From: an uncultured Alphaproteobacteria bacterium
GTDB taxonomy: Bacteria > Pseudomonadota > Alphaproteobacteria > CAAHEQ01 > UBA3637
Length of the DNA: 42,839 nucleotides
Reading direction: 5' to 3'
NCBI GenBank assembly: GCA_944391565.1
Contig: CALXUB010000025.1
Coordinates: forward strand, 68,113 to 110,951
The notes below the pieces were generated by a model that had not been told where the DNA came from, made no database searches, and saw only the letters and a program-made list of their open reading frames with translations. The position numbers and the translations under genes are program-made. This document shows positions 748 through 9,490 of the stretch, piece by piece (within the stretch, counting starts at the first letter, position 1; every line of letters starts with the position of its first letter).

Positions 748-2349
748 TCATGTTTGCTTAATCGCGTGAGCCGGATCTTTTTTACGCATTAAGAACCGTC
801 TCATTTCCTTCAGGCGAATCCCTTTCATTAGCACTAATGATCCGAAGTATGTGATCATAGCACCAAAAATCAAAACACACAAGAGAATAAAAGGAATGAA
901 GTGCGGTAAATGCAACCAATCCCGACAGAGGGTATTCAACCCGAAAAGTGCCAAAGTCAAAAACAAAGCCATGATAATACCGGAGATCAAAATACGCACC
1001 GACCGATATTTAAATAAAATATCTAATTTAAAATCGCCTTTTCTTTTCAACAAAAACACATATTGAGCTGCGTTAATCCAAACCGTAATCCCTGTTGCCA
1101 AAGCAATGCCGACATGCCCCCAAAACTGCATAAAAGTCAAACATAATAAGGCATTGACAACAACACCCAACGAAGCGATTTTAACAGGTGTTTTAGTATC
1201 TCCTCTGGCATAGAAAAACGGTGCCAACGCCTTAGTCAACATATAAGCGGGCAGTCCGATGGCAAATGCTTGAAGCGCACGCGCCGTCGGAATTGTTTCT
1301 TCAAAGGTAAAAGCACCTCGCTCAAACAAAACCGAAACAATCGGTACAGCCAAAATAATCAATCCAAGCATCGAGGCAATTGACATCACAAGCGAAACCT
1401 CCAAACCTCGGTTTAAATCATGTCGAGCCTTTTGATACTTCCCTTCATGCAAATAGCGCGATAAAAACGGCAGTAAGGCCGTTCCTACGGCAACCCCGAT
1501 AATACCAATGGGAAGCTGAAACAAATGATGTGCATAATTAAGCCATGAGACAGCACCGGCTCCGACAAAAGAAACAAAAAATGTATCCAAAAACAAATTG
1601 ATTTGATAAACACCGGAACCAAAGACACCGGGCAACATCCGTTTAAATAAAAGTTTCAAATCTTCGGAAACATGACATAAACTCAAAAACGGTCCTTTTA
1701 ATCCGAACAAAAAGCCCGCTCTATACACATTCCAAGTCAACCATATCAATTCACAAACTCCAGCCCAAAAAACGCCCCAAGCTAAGGCTTGAGCAGAGTT
1801 TTCCATAAAAGGCGTGCCTAACACCAAAAAAAGAATCATCATTAAATTTAAAATAGACGGAGCAAAGGCGGCTGCGGCAAATTTACCGACGGAATTTAAT
1901 ATTCCAGACAACAGTGAAACCAAAGACACGGCCATTAAAAAAGGAAATGTAATCCGACTTAAATAAGTTGTCACTTCCAATTTCCCGGGAATTTGATCAA
2001 ATCCGGGCGCCAAAACAAGCGTCGCCCAAGGCATGATAAGTTCTATCACCAATGTAAAAATCAAAAGGATATAAAACAACAAACTGAAAGCATCTTTGGC
2101 GAATTGTCGCGCCCCTTCTTTTCCTTTTTCTTTCATAACCTGAGAAAACAAAGGAACGAAAGAAACATTCAGAGTGCCTTCTGCGAACAAACTTCGAAAC
2201 AAATTGGGAAAACGCAAGGCCACGAAAAAGGCGTCTGCCAGCATTGTTGCCCCCAGAAAACGGGCGATCAAAACATCCCGCAAAAAACCGATTAACCGGC
2301 TGAGCAGCGTAAACCCACTCAAAGTGGCTATGGACTTTATTAAAGACAT
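748..2349 (-). CDS. murJ: MurJ lipid II flippase (MviN family)
   Basis: This polytopic inner-membrane protein moves lipid II from the cytoplasmic to the periplasmic face for peptidoglycan synthesis. The N-terminus reads SIATLSGFTLLSRLIGFLRD, followed by ADAFFVALRFPNLFRSLFAEG, both typical of MurJ. Alternating hydrophobic stretches through the 533 residues fit about 14 membrane helices, and a GDTKTPVKIA segment lies in the second half as in the family. The frame is open up to a TTG at 2376, but the ATG at 2349 gives the usual MurJ N-terminus and is preferred, although no clear Shine-Dalgarno precedes it. The DUF2333 gene follows 12 nt after the stop. The identification is firm; the start is moderately sure. 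Confidence 0.93.
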   Translation of the reverse strand: MSLIKSIATLSGFTLLSRLIGFLRDVLIARFLGATMLADAFFVALRFPNLFRSLFAEGTLNVSFVPLFSQVMKEKGKEGARQFAKDAFSLLFYILLIFTLVIELIMPWATLVLAPGFDQIPGKLEVTTYLSRITFPFLMAVSLVSLLSGILNSVGKFAAAAFAPSILNLMMILFLVLGTPFMENSAQALAWGVFWAGVCELIWLTWNVYRAGFLFGLKGPFLSLCHVSEDLKLLFKRMLPGVFGSGVYQINLFLDTFFVSFVGAGAVSWLNYAHHLFQLPIGIIGVAVGTALLPFLSRYLHEGKYQKARHDLNRGLEVSLVMSIASMLGLIILAVPIVSVLFERGAFTFEETIPTARALQAFAIGLPAYMLTKALAPFFYARGDTKTPVKIASLGVVVNALLCLTFMQFWGHVGIALATGITVWINAAQYVFLLKRKGDFKLDILFKYRSVRILISGIIMALFLTLALFGLNTLCRDWLHLPHFIPFILLCVLIFGAMITYFGSLVLMKGIRLKEMRRFLMRKKDPAHAIKQT

Positions 2350-2434
2350 AGTATGGTTATAATCGATTTTAAACAAAGGAGCAAGCGCTTTTTGTAAAAA
2401 CGCCGCCCCTTAAGAAATTTTTTCTTTTTAAGGA

Positions 2435-3559
2435 TTACAGATTAAAACATACCGTGATAATCGTATCCGTTTTTAACGAACTATAAACGGTCTGAATAGC
2501 CTTTCCTTTCGGACAACATCCCCAACGGACGCATTCGCCCTTTACCGTTTTAAAACAAAAGGCCTGTGCCCCGTTTTCGCAACATTTGTCTCCCAAACAA
2601 CACCGCCCCGGCTTCATCCCGCAGGTATTGTTGCCGTCACAACACCAGGATCCGCAGTATGTATCTTCCGATGCACATTGACAAACACCGTTAACACATG
2701 TTTGATTAACGCCGCAGCAGCCGTTGCCGCAGGAAACAGGATGTTCTCCGCAGAGTTCTTTTCCCATCCATAAAGTATCTTCCACCGTGGTATCAACCCC
2801 GCTGGCCTTAACAAATTCAGGTGTCATACATATGGAAATGGTCACATCTCCATCCGTCGGCACTTGCGTGACTTTTCCGTTGGCACCGCAGCAAGCCCAT
2901 TTTAAACACTCACCGTTTGTTTCTCGAAAGCAGTATGCCAACTCTTCATTTTCACAGCATATATCTTTTGAACAGCATTCTCCCGGATTCTCACCGCATT
3001 GGTTTGATGCGTCACAACACCAGCCGTCACATGTCGTCTTGTCTTCTCCGCAAGTACACTTTCCATCCGCACCGCAAACTTGTCCCGGCGGACAACAGAC
3101 ATCGTTGCAGACCTGTTCGGGGGAACAACACTCATATCCGGCACAAACTTCCCCCGCACGACAACAATCCAATCCGCAACTTATCAACCCTTTAGCACAA
3201 GTTTTAGGATCAACACATTTATTTTCAACAACAGGCCCGTAAGTCTTTAAAGGATCTTCCAAAACCACTTTTCCATCTGGGCAACACCCTGCCGTTTTAC
3301 ATTCTCCACGAATAGAAGAAAGACAAAACGGTGTTTCACCAAAAGGACAACACGTATCTCCGATACAGCATCGTTCACGCTCCTTACCGCATACGGAACC
3401 AGAGGGACAGCACCATTTGACCGAATCGACATCGCAAACGATTTGCTCTTGGGTGCAGAGTTGTTCCGGCTCTGAAACTTTCTGAGCCAAAACGGCCTTT
3501 GAACAGAAAATAAACATGCAAAAGCTTAATAATTTAAACAAATCAGGCAGACGAACCAT
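2435..3559 (-). CDS. Secreted cysteine-rich protein with three granulin-like modules
   Basis: No family was recognised. The ATG at 3559 has GGGAGG 7 nt upstream; the TTG at 3574 lacks this. A Sec signal peptide of about 26 residues ends near AVLAQ. The mature part (about 348 residues) holds 60 cysteines, about 17 percent, many as CC pairs. Three modules of about 50 residues align at about 49-97, 180-229 and 305-353. Their consensus is WCC, C-G, CC-x3-CC, x7-C, x6-GEC, x4-CC, then GK. Two linker units (about 128-170 and 277-295) share CG-x2-CC and C-x-C. The CC spacing recalls the eukaryotic granulin/epithelin fold, but homology is not claimed. An even cysteine number in an exported protein suggests extensive disulphides. 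The gene is monocistronic, with its own promoter and palindrome. Confidence 0.85.
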   Translation of the reverse strand: MVRLPDLFKLLSFCMFIFCSKAVLAQKVSEPEQLCTQEQIVCDVDSVKWCCPSGSVCGKERERCCIGDTCCPFGETPFCLSSIRGECKTAGCCPDGKVVLEDPLKTYGPVVENKCVDPKTCAKGLISCGLDCCRAGEVCAGYECCSPEQVCNDVCCPPGQVCGADGKCTCGEDKTTCDGWCCDASNQCGENPGECCSKDICCENEELAYCFRETNGECLKWACCGANGKVTQVPTDGDVTISICMTPEFVKASGVDTTVEDTLWMGKELCGEHPVSCGNGCCGVNQTCVNGVCQCASEDTYCGSWCCDGNNTCGMKPGRCCLGDKCCENGAQAFCFKTVKGECVRWGCCPKGKAIQTVYSSLKTDTIITVCFNL

Positions 3560-3586: not shown

Positions 3587-3607
3587 GTTAGGTTAATTTA
3601 ACCTAAC
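3587..3607. promoter_or_regulatory. Perfect palindrome, probable operator
   Basis: The arms GTTAGGTTAA and TTAACCTAAC are exact inverse complements around a single T. The site ends 28 nt before the ATG of the cysteine-rich gene and overlaps its proposed -10 hexamer. Such placement is typical of a repressor operator; the binding protein is unknown. No T-tract follows, so a terminator role is unlikely. Confidence 0.6.
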
Positions 3608-3624
3608 ATATTCATTCCTGTCAA
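3596..3624 (-). promoter_or_regulatory. Promoter of the cysteine-rich gene
   Basis: On the minus strand a perfect -35 TTGACA (3624-3619) is followed by a 17-nt spacer and TTAAAT (3601-3596) as a weaker -10. Transcription would begin near 3588, inside the palindrome, leaving about 30 nt of leader with the GGGAGG ribosome site. Confidence 0.55.
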
Positions 3625-3675: not shown

Positions 3676-5052
3676 TCAGAACATGAAAGTCGCACGAATG
3701 CTGGCTACCGTTGCCGTATTTTTATCAGAATCCAATCCCGGATTGATATAAAACTGCACATCCGGCGTAATTGTGACAAAATTGGATAAGCCCCAGGCCC
3801 AGTAGGCCTCCAAAACTGTTTCAACCGATCTTGTTCCGGAACCGTTTACATTCTTATTTAATTTGTTAACGGCAGCGGCAAAACCAATTTGATCTAAAGC
3901 ATTTCTGTTTAACGGATTATTATAAACCGTCCCCAAAACATACGATTGCTTAATGGGCTCAACACCAGTATTACCATTAACACGACCGAAAAGTGCCCAC
4001 TTTTCTCCGAAACTCTGAGCCACGTTAATTGACCAACCATTCGTCGTTCCCGGTTGTTCTTCGACTCCCGGCTGATTATAGAGCAAAATAGAATACTGAC
4101 CGGCACCTAAATCTTTAATTGTGGGCGTGAAAGAAGCCGACACAAAGCTTGTAAACTTCTTTTCATGAAAAGTATGTGTGTCAATTTTACTGCCGGTCGT
4201 ATTATTGGCATCCTGGAAACCCGCTGCAAACTGCCAATTACTGTTAGGCGTCACTGTCACAAAGCCACCCAAACTGGCTGAGGGATAAGTAGAGCTGGCA
4301 TTTTGAGACAAAGCCATGTTAATAAAATTTGTTTGTTGATTCGAATCGTATTCCGTTCCATCCCAATTATACATGGGAAATTGACCAAAAGAGACTGATA
4401 ACCAACTGAAATCTCCGGGTAAAGTGTGTGTGTAGGTCAGTTGATCAAAATAATGTTCATTTGAAGTATAATCATTCAACTCGCTGGCCAACGCCAACCG
4501 ATTGTTCAACCAAGCCCCGCTTTTCCCCCAATAATGAATGTCCGTGTAAGCAAACTGAAGCGATCCGTCACCAATTTTACTTTTATACATATTCCAATCA
4601 ACGCTGCCGTAATATTGTGTCTGCCACGGCGTTCCTTTACCGTTCGGAGCACCCCGCTGTCCCATAATGGAAATATCTAATGAATATGAAAGCCCCATTT
4701 TATTATTCAAGTCTTGCTTAAAATCAGCATATTTTTGGGCAAATGACTCCTGTTTAGCCAGAGCATGCCTTTGTCGAGCATGTTCTTGACGTTGTTTGAC
4801 ACTTTTAGGCATATTGGTTTGAAGAACTGCCTTTTCCTTTGATTCATCTATTTTCTGATCAACAGGAGTCTGAACGGCCGGCAGCGTATCTCGCCCCTTT
4901 TCAATCTTTGTATCCACAGCTCCTTTGGGTACTTGAGCCGGCGCAATTTGCGGCATTGTCGTTTGTTCAATCAAAAGCTCCTGTGCCGTGGCAGAAAAAG
5001 CCAACATCGTTGTTCCAACAAACAAGTATGTAAAATATAACCCTTTTTTCAT
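3676..5052 (-). CDS. OprB-like outer-membrane porin
   Basis: A beta-barrel porin resembling carbohydrate-selective OprB proteins, expected to admit small solutes across the outer membrane. The ATG at 5052 has GGGGGA 4 nt upstream and opens a signal peptide (MKKGLYFTYLFVGTTMLAFS, cleavage near ATAQ), giving 458 residues; the frame continues open upstream but without support. Residues about 85-115 are charged and helical (KQRQEHARQRHALAKQES), possibly a periplasmic coiled coil. The barrel follows, ending with LTPDVQ-like ITPDVQFYINPGLDSD and a last strand terminating in phenylalanine, the usual barrel-assembly signal. The gene has its own promoter and is divergent from the autotransporter. Substrate is unknown. 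Confidence 0.8.
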   Translation of the reverse strand: MKKGLYFTYLFVGTTMLAFSATAQELLIEQTTMPQIAPAQVPKGAVDTKIEKGRDTLPAVQTPVDQKIDESKEKAVLQTNMPKSVKQRQEHARQRHALAKQESFAQKYADFKQDLNNKMGLSYSLDISIMGQRGAPNGKGTPWQTQYYGSVDWNMYKSKIGDGSLQFAYTDIHYWGKSGAWLNNRLALASELNDYTSNEHYFDQLTYTHTLPGDFSWLSVSFGQFPMYNWDGTEYDSNQQTNFINMALSQNASSTYPSASLGGFVTVTPNSNWQFAAGFQDANNTTGSKIDTHTFHEKKFTSFVSASFTPTIKDLGAGQYSILLYNQPGVEEQPGTTNGWSINVAQSFGEKWALFGRVNGNTGVEPIKQSYVLGTVYNNPLNRNALDQIGFAAAVNKLNKNVNGSGTRSVETVLEAYWAWGLSNFVTITPDVQFYINPGLDSDKNTATVASIRATFMF

Positions 5053-5088
5053 AATTTCCCCCTTCTTTTTTATCAAAAAGTCTTCTTT

Positions 5089-5116
5089 ATTATAGATTGC
5101 ATATTTTAAATGTAAA
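5089..5116 (-). promoter_or_regulatory. Promoter of the porin gene
   Basis: On the minus strand TTTACA (5116-5111), a 16-nt spacer and a consensus TATAAT (5094-5089) precede the porin ATG by 37 nt. Confidence 0.65.
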
Positions 5117-5155
5117 CAACTTTTAATTGAATATCGAAAAAAACTGATTTTATAC

Positions 5156-5184
5156 TTGAACCCTGTCCTAAAGTATGCCATAAA
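5156..5184 (+). promoter_or_regulatory. Possible promoter of the autotransporter
   Basis: TTGAAC (5156-5161), 17 nt, then CATAAA (5179-5184). Both hexamers are imperfect; the position, about 45 nt before the ATG, is suitable. Confidence 0.3.
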
Positions 5185-5227: not shown

Positions 5228-8200
5228 ATGCGATCAAAATGGACTTTTTCCTTGTTAATTGGGACTTTGCTTTCTTGCCCTCAGGCGGGATTGGCTGATG
5301 CCTTGCATGTCATTACGGGAACCACTGAAACGCAAGCGGATGAAACGGCAACAGGTGATACGCATGTTTATCAAAGCAATGGGACACCTTTTTCATTTTC
5401 AAACAATCACACATTGACAAGCCAAAATGGTTATGTTTTACACCTCAACGGAACAGATCCTTTGCCTGGAACAAACATCACCAATTCCGGGAATATGCTG
5501 GTCTCAGGAACAGGTTTGAGTGCCGGATACGGTATTTTTTCCACCGTTTATCGTGGTAGACCTGTTTCCGCAAATATTTATAACGACGGAACGATTGAGC
5601 GCATTCAATTAAAGGAAACAGACGGTAGTTCTCTCAGGAATAATGGAACAGTAGGCGGAACGGTTTTAATCGGCGACAATGCTTATATTACCAATCAAGG
5701 GAGTATGATTAACAAGACAACTGGAGATGATGACGACAATTTAATTTCATTTGGCAAAAACGGTGTACTTAATAACGGTGGTATTTATTTTGCGACTCAG
5801 ATCGGTGACGATGTTTATGATGAATTGCCTTCTGCCAATCACACGATTACAACAGACAAGCTTGTTTTTACACAAAACGGTATTATTCATAACGGTGGCA
5901 CGATTCGAAATAACTCTATTGAAATGGGGGACCAAGCCTATATTCATAATTATATGAGTCCATATGAAGGAGAACCCGACGACACAATGGTTCGTGAAAT
6001 CGAAACCAACACGTTGACAATCGGAAATAACTCTTATATTTCAAACAACATGGGTGGTGTCTTCAATGTCAATGAGACCTTCACAACCGGTGATAATACG
6101 ACAATTGTCAACGGAGCTGATTATGAATTGAATTTACTCGCTCCTACGATTGAAATTACAATTCCCAGTAAAACGGAAGGAGAAGAACCAACTGTTATAG
6201 AAGCGACATACCCAGCGAACGACAAAGAGAGTTCCATGAACGTCGGTAATTTAACGCTGGGAGAGGCAAACAGTCTACAAAACCTACATGCTGCCACCAT
6301 GACCGGACAAAATATCAGCTTTAAAAATGACTCGTCTTTTATCAATCAAGGTGGCAATATCACTCTGACGGCACCGGCGGCGACTGAAGAAAACCCGGAA
6401 CCTGCTTCTTCTTTAACATTTTTAGATAACGGTAGTTTTAGTTCAGAAAGCATAACAACAACCTATCAGCACTTGGACACTTCAAACGGAGAAATTACTT
6501 CAACCCTTTACTTAAATAATGCAACAACAAAAGTTGACAATTGGTCAATGGGGAACAACGGATCCATAGACCTGGTTGGTGCTGATATTACAAGCAAAAA
6601 TCTGACAATGGGGGATAATGCCTCTATTTCCGGTAAAGAATTTACATATACTGTCGAAGAAAATGAAATAAGTATTTATTCTAATTTAAATGTTGAAAAT
6701 TCTATTTCATTGGGCAATTATGGTCTCATTGCTTCCGAAAACTTGAACATCACCGCAGATAAAATTTTATTTCAAGATAACGGTACTTTTGAAAACGGTT
6801 CAATGGTGCAGGCTAATGAACTCACTATGGGCAACGAGGCAACAATTACCACCAGCGGTGTTTTAAGCGTGCCAACTACGGTTGGCAGCACCTCTCGGGT
6901 TTATCTGTACAGCGCCAGCAACAACGACTTATGTTCTTCCTTCGGACAATGTCAAGGCGGTTCTATTATCGGAAGTCTTCAGAAAGCAGAAGGAAGTTCG
7001 GATGTTCAGGTTGTCTCTAGTGTTGAATCTAGCTACTATGGTTATTTATCCGGTATTATCGATGTCGACAGCATTTTGATTGATAAAAACTCTTTGCAGT
7101 TATCCGGAGATATTAAAGGTGTCATTAATATGAACTCAGACACTTATTTAAAATTTGTCGGTGAATCTGTCTATATTCATGATCCCATTCAACGTGTCAG
7201 TGGTGCCACAAATACCAATTTAGAGATTGCTTTAGATGATACTTTGCCCGGTGAACGACCCTTTTATGAAACGACGAATACGGTTGATGTAGACCATATT
7301 TTAATTTCAAGCGGTGGATTGTCTATCACGCGCCCTGTTTCTGTACAAGATATTACACTGGGTGCCAATGCCATCCTGAAAGTGACAGGAAATTACATTA
7401 CAGGTGATATCGCAGAATTAGACGACGAGGCTGTCAATACTACTTTTACCATTGATGTCGGAACCGGAAATATCTTTAATTCTTCGGGCACAATCACCCT
7501 AGACAGAGTCACTTTGGATAGTGGTATTTTTAACGTCAATCACACAATCCGAGCTATCAAAGGCTTGCATCCTGGCAATCAAGAAGAAGGCATTGAGCTA
7601 GGAACTGATTCCGTTTTAAACGTCAATCATGATGTTTATACAAATCAATTGGTCCGACTCAGCGATGCATTACAGCCTGTCACCAACACGACCGTCAATT
7701 TAAATCAAGGCACTTTATCTGTTGATAGAAACATGGATGTAGACACCCTCATCTTCAACGGCGGCAGTCTGAAAATGAACAACAAAGACCTGACGAATAA
7801 AGTCACGATTGCCAACGACGTCACAGTTGGCAAAGGATCGACCTTATCCGGAAACGGAATGTTTGAAATTACAAATGGCAGTTTAACTTTGGAAAACGGC
7901 AGCACATTGGCTGTATCAACGTTGAAAGTCGAAGAAGAAGGATTAAATGTCATGAATTTAATAACGGATGTCACTACAATGGCTGGCAGTACCATTGACT
8001 TACGTGCCTCTGAAACTGATTCGGACAGGATTTCTATTGCTGGAACTCTGAATTTAGGAAATCATACAAAGCTGATTATCCGAAACATATCGGCCGGTCA
8101 AGAATATGAAATTATCTCGGCAGATTCTATTATCGGAACACCGGCCTACTTCCAAACTTCTTTCTTGTGGGACAATCCGGCATTCAGAATTGAAAACAAT

Positions 8201-9490
8201 TCGATTTATGCGACAGTCAACGGTATTAAAACCTTCCAGGAAGGAATTTCTGTTATAAATCCGTCACGTAATGTTGAAGAAGTTGCCAAAGCCTTAGACA
8301 CGATCAACGACAGTTTAACGGCTGAAAGTGAAACACCCTTGTTTCTTGACACCATTACTTATGCGGATTCTGCACAAAGTGCGGCTTCCATGATGAAGCA
8401 ATTGTCGTCTGAAAGCTATGGCAACACAACATTAGCAGCCATTCGAACTTTATCTGTTCTTAATCGAACCAGAACAAATGTTTTAGCTGAAATCAGACAG
8501 GCTTCGGATAAATTCGCTCCTCCGAAAAAAACGAATTATTCTCCATATGTCAATTATACGGGGCGCAGCGGAGGTGACTATTATATACTGCAAAACGGAC
8601 GCTATACGCTTTATTCCGTTGACTCGACTAATGAGAACTACGCCCCTCCGCAAAGCTATCGCACGGATGCAGGCGGCGTATGGGTCAAACCTTATGCTTT
8701 GATGATGAGTCAAGATGATGATAAGGGCATTTCAGGTTTTGATTACGATGCTTATGGTGTGACGGCTGGCTTTGACATTGCTTTTGAAAACTTATCCTTA
8801 GGGATTATGGGAATTTTCGGTCAAGGTGAGCTTGATCAAAATGATAATTCTTTCAAATCAGACATTGACACCTATGGTTTTGGTCTTTACGGAGAAGCCC
8901 TGCCCGGCGGTCATCATTTTGTTGATTTCTATGCAACTTATCTGGTCAATGCCAATGACACACAACGAAAAATCTCGGCATTAGGCGAAACCGCAAAAGC
9001 CAGTTATGATATGAAGACATATGCTGGAGGACTTGCTTATGGCTATAATATCGAACTTGGTAAACATGTTGTGTTAATCCCGAAAGTCGGTGTTGATTAT
9101 GCTTACCTTAAAACTGATGATTTCACGGAAAAAGGCTCCAGCGCAGCATTAAAGGTCGAAAATGACAGCTATCAATCCATTCAAACACCTCTTGAAATAA
9201 CTGCATTGTTCAACATGGGAACACAAAATGTCCTCTTCACCCCTGAATTAAAAGCCAGATGGGCCCATGAATTTGGTGATACGGAAGCTTCGAATAAAAG
9301 TCAGTTCATCGGATATACCCCATGGATGAAAGCAAAAGGAATCGATATCGGCCGAAATGTCTTTACTTTCGGTGCTGCGGCTACTTTAACGTTGGGGGGA
9401 CAAAATCATATTTCCTTCAGTTATGATTATGACTTTGGTTCCAATTTCGACGCACACACCTTTAATTTGGGTTATACTTACGCTTTTTAG
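5228..9490 (+). CDS. Type V autotransporter with beta-helical passenger
   Basis: A 1420-residue surface protein. A Sec signal peptide (residues 1-24, ending GLADA) is preceded by GAGG 8 nt before the ATG. Residues about 30-1040 form a repetitive passenger rich in N, T, G and S, with recurring units such as LTMGDNASIS and ELTMGNEATI, typical of right-handed beta helices. A helical linker (about 1045-1100) leads to the autotransporter barrel from about 1148 (GVWVKPYALM) to the C-terminal FNLGYTYAF, ending in phenylalanine. The passenger contains only two cysteines, at LCSSFGQCQ near residue 573. No protease or lipase triad was recognised, so an adhesin or structural role is the inference. It is divergent from the porin and ends in a strong terminator. 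Confidence 0.9.
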   Translation: MRSKWTFSLLIGTLLSCPQAGLADALHVITGTTETQADETATGDTHVYQSNGTPFSFSNNHTLTSQNGYVLHLNGTDPLPGTNITNSGNMLVSGTGLSAGYGIFSTVYRGRPVSANIYNDGTIERIQLKETDGSSLRNNGTVGGTVLIGDNAYITNQGSMINKTTGDDDDNLISFGKNGVLNNGGIYFATQIGDDVYDELPSANHTITTDKLVFTQNGIIHNGGTIRNNSIEMGDQAYIHNYMSPYEGEPDDTMVREIETNTLTIGNNSYISNNMGGVFNVNETFTTGDNTTIVNGADYELNLLAPTIEITIPSKTEGEEPTVIEATYPANDKESSMNVGNLTLGEANSLQNLHAATMTGQNISFKNDSSFINQGGNITLTAPAATEENPEPASSLTFLDNGSFSSESITTTYQHLDTSNGEITSTLYLNNATTKVDNWSMGNNGSIDLVGADITSKNLTMGDNASISGKEFTYTVEENEISIYSNLNVENSISLGNYGLIASENLNITADKILFQDNGTFENGSMVQANELTMGNEATITTSGVLSVPTTVGSTSRVYLYSASNNDLCSSFGQCQGGSIIGSLQKAEGSSDVQVVSSVESSYYGYLSGIIDVDSILIDKNSLQLSGDIKGVINMNSDTYLKFVGESVYIHDPIQRVSGATNTNLEIALDDTLPGERPFYETTNTVDVDHILISSGGLSITRPVSVQDITLGANAILKVTGNYITGDIAELDDEAVNTTFTIDVGTGNIFNSSGTITLDRVTLDSGIFNVNHTIRAIKGLHPGNQEEGIELGTDSVLNVNHDVYTNQLVRLSDALQPVTNTTVNLNQGTLSVDRNMDVDTLIFNGGSLKMNNKDLTNKVTIANDVTVGKGSTLSGNGMFEITNGSLTLENGSTLAVSTLKVEEEGLNVMNLITDVTTMAGSTIDLRASETDSDRISIAGTLNLGNHTKLIIRNISAGQEYEIISADSIIGTPAYFQTSFLWDNPAFRIENNSIYATVNGIKTFQEGISVINPSRNVEEVAKALDTINDSLTAESETPLFLDTITYADSAQSAASMMKQLSSESYGNTTLAAIRTLSVLNRTRTNVLAEIRQASDKFAPPKKTNYSPYVNYTGRSGGDYYILQNGRYTLYSVDSTNENYAPPQSYRTDAGGVWVKPYALMMSQDDDKGISGFDYDAYGVTAGFDIAFENLSLGIMGIFGQGELDQNDNSFKSDIDTYGFGLYGEALPGGHHFVDFYATYLVNANDTQRKISALGETAKASYDMKTYAGGLAYGYNIELGKHVVLIPKVGVDYAYLKTDDFTEKGSSAALKVENDSYQSIQTPLEITALFNMGTQNVLFTPELKARWAHEFGDTEASNKSQFIGYTPWMKAKGIDIGRNVFTFGAAATLTLGGQNHISFSYDYDFGSNFDAHTFNLGYTYAF

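Follow-up and report, generated by a model that had tools for sequence, protein, structure and literature searches.

The closest described systems are of known kinds, the pilus-secreted soluble protein and the modular pilin. As described in PMC9565799, type IVb pili export the soluble proteins TcpF and CofJ, whose N-terminal, aromatic-bearing signal binds the minor pilin at the pilus tip. Modular pilins are described as bearing adhesive modules (PMC8179133; review PMC10191384), with Streptococcus sanguinis PilB and PilC as examples (PMC8179133), and the PilV shufflon adhesins of IncI2 thin pili as bearing variable C-termini on a constant pilin start (PMC9045228). Cysteine-rich tandem modules with CC pairs and hairpins are described for granulin and progranulin, the granulin unit being termed a '12 cysteine' module (PMC4527844), and disulphide-held hairpins for the mini-granulin fold (PMC11035057).

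The gene reported here encodes a protein of 374 aa that resembles TcpF and CofJ in being a predicted soluble, Sec-type protein of a cell with type IVb pilus genes, and in having a paralogue that follows a cysteine-rich frame. Unlike TcpF and CofJ as described in PMC9565799, it has no N-terminal aromatic signal and its gene lies outside the pilus operon; sequence kinship with them is not claimed. The likeness to PilB and PilC lies in a non-pilin module carried on a pilin, here as kin modules on prepilin-like proteins of relatives, whereas the 374-aa protein has no pilin part, a Pfam or PDB relative of its module was not found, and its genome holds nine complete cysteine-rich prepilin-like frames. 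The PilO, PilP and TcpQ families are shared with the PilV system as described in PMC9045228, as is the pattern of variable C-terminal parts on a constant pilin start, but here each variant is a gene of its own and these genes are scattered over many places. With granulins the protein shares cysteine-rich tandem modules, CC pairs and predicted hairpins; it differs from the description in PMC4527844 in having 13 cysteines per module in another order and spacing, a score below the PF00396 cut-off and bacterial prepilin-like kin. The mini-granulins are three-disulphide peptides, and they are likened here by their description in PMC11035057, not by sequence or structure comparison; disulphide-held hairpins would be common to both if the cysteines here are oxidised.

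The DNA analysed (the window, 42,839 nt) is part of contig CALXUB010000025.1 from an uncultured Alphaproteobacteria bacterium (UBA3637; assembly GCA_944391565.1; 1.27 Mb in 37 contigs, 94% complete). An earlier note on this DNA had described a secreted protein with 60 cysteines, about 17 percent of its residues, in three aligned granulin-like modules. The cysteine-rich frame was borne out, on the minus strand; the plus reading of 2435..3559 holds 10 stops, and translation from ATG 3559 to the stop at 2435 gave the 374 residues. The protein contains 62 cysteines, 60 of them beyond residue 25 (60/349; 17.2%), and 16 CC pairs by count. Of the 39 frames in the window that start with M and reach 150 aa or more, it ranked first in cysteine share, at 16.6% (runner-up 5.5%; median 1.4%). 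The start is of the Sec type as judged by eye; a class III signal peptide and a pilin helix are absent, and in the mature protein no aromatic residue precedes Trp49 (position 24 after cleavage). All three modules, set apart by shorter CG-x2-CC units, share the spacing C-x6-C-x(3 or 7)-CC-x5-C-x6-CC-x4-CC-x7-C-x7-C-x4-CC, with 13 cysteines each. The signal peptide, the cysteine content and the three modules of the earlier note thus stand, and its reading as a likely secreted, cysteine-rich repeat protein is supported. The pattern is not a product of chance, since a full-length paralogue with 37% identity keeps the layout and shuffles with fixed cysteines never reached the true score for any of seven further copies (see below).

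Table 1. Features at the locus of the 374-aa protein (window coordinates).
Feature	Position	Strand	Remarks
MurJ-like flippase	748..2376	-	downstream neighbour, same strand; label by eye
Gene of the 374-aa three-module protein	2435..3559	-	ATG 3559, stop 2435
Module 3 tail, residues 350-374	2438..2512	-	
Module 3, residues 295-349, 13 Cys	2513..2677	-	module alignment and spacing
Linker unit ahead of module 3, residues 270-295	2675..2752	-	
Module 2 tail, residues 225-244	2828..2887	-	
Module 2, residues 170-224, 13 Cys	2888..3052	-	module alignment and spacing
CG-x2-CC linker units joining modules 1 and 2, residues 121-170	3050..3199	-	
Module 1 tail hairpin, residues 94-115	3215..3280	-	predicted strands
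Module 1, residues 35-93, 13 Cys	3281..3457	-	module alignment and spacing
Sec-type signal peptide, residues 1-25	3485..3559	-	...SKAVLA/Q, cleavage past VLA, by eye
Perfect inverted repeat, 10-bp arms, one central base (21 bp)	3587..3607		
Promoter-like site TTGACA-18-TAAATT, 10/12	3595..3624	-	upstream of the 374-aa gene
Porin-like protein	3676..5181	-	upstream neighbour, same strand; label by eye

Structure prediction from 13 module sequences, a check proposed in the earlier note, gave a repeated hairpin fold: the module is predicted as a run of four β-hairpins (pLDDT 93.9). Stacking and disulphides are not visible in the model, and granulin is not named among the listed fold matches. The module had no match at E 0.001 in the PDB or among viruses; against solved chains at E <= 10, the 13-module profile gave a single match, to an LDL-receptor-related protein (E 5.1). 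The 374-aa protein matched nothing in Pfam (E <= 10), NCBIfam (0.1), PHROGs (1) or PADLOC (1), so that these four collections hold no match to a characterised bacterial family, which the earlier note had named as the case against its reading.

A search with the whole protein in 57 genomes, 33 of them from the same bacterial family, gave matches in four, its own included. The paralogue in the same genome lies on contig C34 (394 aa, 37% identical, same three-module layout) and starts 16 nt past the stop of a 380-aa cysteine-rich frame, which resembles the cysteine-rich parts of giant pilins by eye; a stop lies near the contig end, and no pilin start is visible for this frame. The matches in genomes G017 and G018 are prepilin-like proteins of 673 aa and >800 aa, and that in G001 is truncated at a contig end. 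The prepilin-like starts of the large matching frames read GKSMIEMLAVLAVIGVLSIIALAGF (L005/L048) and GRSMIEISGCLALISLLLMGA (L006/L049), and such starts are present in the relatives L048, L049, L072 and L077.

The family survey that the earlier note had suggested found kin of the module, mostly on large prepilin-like proteins. A profile was built from an alignment of 13 rows (A3: three modules of the 374-aa protein, three of the paralogue and seven from other frames). Of the 43 family genomes, 13 contained matches, at 36 places in all, which include the profile's own 13 rows. Matches above 45 bits were confined to five of the 43 genomes (three of the genus, G017 and G018), and eight further genomes had weak matches only (20-27 bits). 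Thirty of the 36 places were inspected as loci. With the 374-aa protein and its paralogue set aside, the start was visible in 10 frames, and nine of these are prepilin-like: four strong matches, all with the prepilin pattern (L124, L126, L138, L143), two weak matches with the pattern (L132, L134) and three weak matches with a prepilin start by eye (L131, L133, L135). The tenth (L136) is a weak match with a Sec-like start. L131 and L133 may not be independent cases, their starts being near-identical by eye despite a similarity ratio of 0.12. Most remaining module frames begin at a contig or stretch edge and their start is not visible; two begin within the pilin head domain (L148, L156), and one from the source genome (L154) begins in cysteine-rich sequence which, by eye, recalls that of the C24 pilin. 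Two A3 rows, L072 and L077, were taken from the pilin-head scan described below; they account for two of the four strong pilin-borne copies and, being bound to be pilins, are not independent evidence.

Compared with the modules of the two secreted proteins, the seven copies from other frames had corrected scores from 41.5 down to 18.3 bits. For each of these seven copies, none of 2000 shuffles with fixed cysteines reached the true score, and the kinship between module and pilin is therefore more than cysteine spacing. Outside the cysteines identity is low (14/49 when module 1 is compared with the G017 pilin), which points to a likely but ancient common descent. A protein search with a pilin-borne module gave two matches among four candidates, one 98% identical to the query pilin and the other resembling the G018 pilin. 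On this evidence the 374-aa protein is very probably kin to the pilin-borne modules.

The source genome contains 24 prepilin-like starts (E <= 10; weakest listed E 0.14; three above the Pfam cut-off). Nine belong to complete frames with at least 6% cysteine (275 to 1250 aa, stop to stop), the largest cysteine count among the complete frames being 182 in 1250 aa; seven frames are truncated at contig ends, the one on C24 being interrupted by a frame break as well, and eight are small or cysteine-poor. Contigs C5, C7, C20 and C32 (L036-L039) encode giant prepilin-like proteins, 746-1250 aa in length and with 96-182 cysteines. Those of them searched against Pfam returned either no match or a weak N_methyl start. 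When public genomes were scanned with the head domain of six giant pilins, 110 pattern matches were obtained, which correspond to 60 loci: 29 closed frames, of which 26 have at least 300 aa and at least 6% cysteine, and 31 that run off the contig. Four assemblies account for 21, 11, 10 and 8 of the loci, and 10 lie elsewhere. One contig filed as Butyrivibrio (L081, CALWMX010000112.1) carries a pilin start of this alphaproteobacterial type, probably through a binning error. At four contig ends of the source assembly (C13, C24, C23 and C1; L025, L026, L028 and L029) the 5′ DNA of the pilins is nearly alike, and similar pilin 5′ repeats appear to break this assembly.

The source genome possesses a type IVb pilus gene set. 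Contig C1 encodes TcpQ, secretin, PilO, PilP, ATPase and platform protein on a single strand, with scores above cut-off for PilO (97.1 bits), TcpQ (62.5), PilP (42.6), T2SSE (231.7), T2SSF (94.6) and Secretin (40.3); the secretin scored narrowly below cut-off against the PilN family (271.4 vs 287.65 bits). T2SSE and secretin each occur once above cut-off in the genome. A giant-type pilin start lies 174 nt beyond these genes on the same strand and runs off the contig. The opposite strand of C1 (L113, 9789-13129) carries VirB4-type (44.9 bits; cut-off 21), VirB2-type (26.1 bits, just below the cut-off of 27.9) and, by eye, VirB3-type genes, possibly a conjugation or secretion set next to the pilus genes.

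Sec-type genes directly behind giant pilins are few. A Sec-type, cysteine-bearing gene within 20 nt downstream was found for two of 45 closed giant frames, a set that was gathered with a loose pattern, may include some non-pilins, and leaves out the C34 pair, the first frame of which has no visible start. A secreted partner for every giant pilin was therefore rejected. In the first case (L099, 1483-2901) a 473-aa cysteine-rich protein starts 11 nt past a giant pilin whose stop is immediately followed by a GGAG stretch; in the second (L067, 3059-3427) a 123-aa protein, with a weak Link-domain score (17.7 vs cut-off 27), follows a 554-aa cysteine-rich pilin frame by 16 nt. A further cysteine-bearing frame with a signal-like start lies at a contig edge (L117, 12942-13595), and by eye one stretch of it is similar to part of the L077 pilin.

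As the best explanation of these findings we tentatively propose, with a probability of roughly 0.4, that the 374-aa protein works with type IVb pili as a soluble adhesive partner stapled by disulphides. A loose role of this kind is suggested by the relatives of the module, most of which lie on large predicted pilins wherever the start of the gene is visible. The unanchored three-module protein would be exported by Sec, its cysteines would be oxidised to disulphides, for which one DsbA-like protein is encoded, and it would leave the cell with the pilus machine and dock at or near the pilus tip, where the stapled hairpins could bind a host, mucus or neighbour surface. Such a soluble set of stapled modules could travel with pili that bear kin modules, combining the mode of TcpF and CofJ with that of the modular pilins. 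Several observations count against the proposal: the gene adjoins porin and MurJ genes and no pilin gene, the N-terminal aromatic signal of the TcpF/CofJ type is absent, Trp49 being the first aromatic, and the 2/45 count for neighbouring Sec-type cysteine genes is low. The uncertain oxidation of the cysteines (see below), the cysteine-rich frame ahead of the paralogue with no visible pilin start, the many module frames whose start is not visible and the origin of L072 and L077 in a pilin-head scan weigh on the same side.

The surroundings of the gene bear on a first alternative, that the protein is a free factor acting alone on the host or on microbes, with no tie to a pilus and a shared module that reflects origin alone; we consider this unlikely, though the best of the alternatives. 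It would agree with a gene that stands alone between porin and murJ and has its own promoter-like site and operator-like palindrome (Table 1), with the lack of the gene at this place in a sister species, and with the absence of the known type of pilin-binding signal. Four promoter-like sites were found in the window, against 2.0 expected from shuffles. The palindrome overlaps the second promoter hexamer, which makes it operator-like, and is also terminator-like on the plus strand; the window holds one such site, where 0.02 would be expected, and among 153 loci it was found only in copies of the same place. A GGGAGG stretch resembling a ribosome site accompanies the gene. In G002, a sister species, 96 bp separate the porin gene from the murJ ATG, and no cysteine-rich gene lies between them; its MurJ protein is 90% identical to that of the window. 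A second sister, G001, gave no murJ match, so the comparison at this place rests on G002. Beyond the porin gene, at 5228-9490 on the opposite strand, lies a gene for an autotransporter-like protein (1420 aa; label by eye). Against a free factor, the paralogue and the secreted cysteine proteins of two relatives sit directly behind cysteine-rich or pilin frames, and Pfam, NCBIfam and PADLOC gave no family match that hints at such a factor.

The gene might instead derive from a pilin gene by loss of the pilin part and serve, as a spare or decoy, to supply pilin genes with modules by recombination, while having little function of its own. The many similar pilin starts with contig breaks in them (31 of the 60 loci run off the contig) would suit such a copy, as would its absence between porin and murJ in G002; but the frame is intact, with Sec-type signal, GGGAGG stretch and promoter-like site, and the paralogue retains the three-module layout at 37% identity, which makes this reading improbable.

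A metal-binding protein with cysteine thiolates, or a redox buffer of the envelope, was considered in view of the very high cysteine content and of the disulphide genes. PF01323 (DsbA), PF02600 (DsbB) and PF07884 (VKOR) gave no match in the source genome at E <= 0.001, and oxidation of the cysteines is therefore uncertain; the missing DsbB and VKOR matches would accord with free thiolates. However, contig C7 encodes a DsbA-like protein with a CSHC motif (PF13462, 100 bits; PF01323, 20.2 bits, below the cut-off of 25.6). A hairpin fold predicted with high confidence, CC spacing that is near-constant across copies, and kin modules on predicted surface pilins likewise speak against a metal or redox role, to which we give little credence.

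The granulin likeness was traced further. The granulin motif is C-x-D-x2-H-CCP-x4-C. This PS00799-like motif was not found in the 374-aa protein, nor, by regular expression, was the granulin spacing of 12 cysteines with four central CC pairs. An hmmscan of the protein gave no PF00396 match at E <= 10; a looser search reached 9.6 bits at module 1 (cut-off 20.9), and gave signals in 5 of 14 control genomes as well, none over cut-off. Membership of the granulin family is not supported by score, spacing or motif; of the granulin-like modules claimed in the earlier note, the run of hairpins is predicted and the family assignment finds no support in the sequence. That a true granulin was acquired from a eukaryote is thus exceedingly improbable: the CC-rich hairpin run, the WCC and CCP motifs and the 9.6 bits to PF00396 recall one, but the score is below cut-off and matched by control signals, spacing and motif are absent, and the relatives are alphaproteobacterial prepilin-like proteins.

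Beyond the single gene, we put forward, as a possibility somewhat short of even odds, that in this small-genome alphaproteobacterial family one type IVb machine serves a large repertoire, var-like in kind, of giant pilins that are stapled by cysteines and carry exchangeable modules, and that copies of these modules are also secreted. The module would then be a disulphide fold that has no relative of solved structure, and the secreted copies would be loose adhesins of the pilus tip, or decoys. Neither the module nor its many pilin-borne relatives nor the secreted form with three modules turned up in Pfam, NCBIfam, PHROGs, PADLOC or the literature searched. The module is a confidently predicted cysteine fold without a solved structure, and one that can be made and tested. 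The giant cysteine-rich pilin repertoire outweighs the single gene in interest and, if the proposal is true, would account for the breaking of assemblies of these genomes at giant pilin genes. A disulphide-rich surface style based on module swapping is known mainly from eukaryotic surface antigens; if the proposal is true, a bacterial surface system would diversify by swapping disulphide-rich pilin modules and would also free them as proteins.
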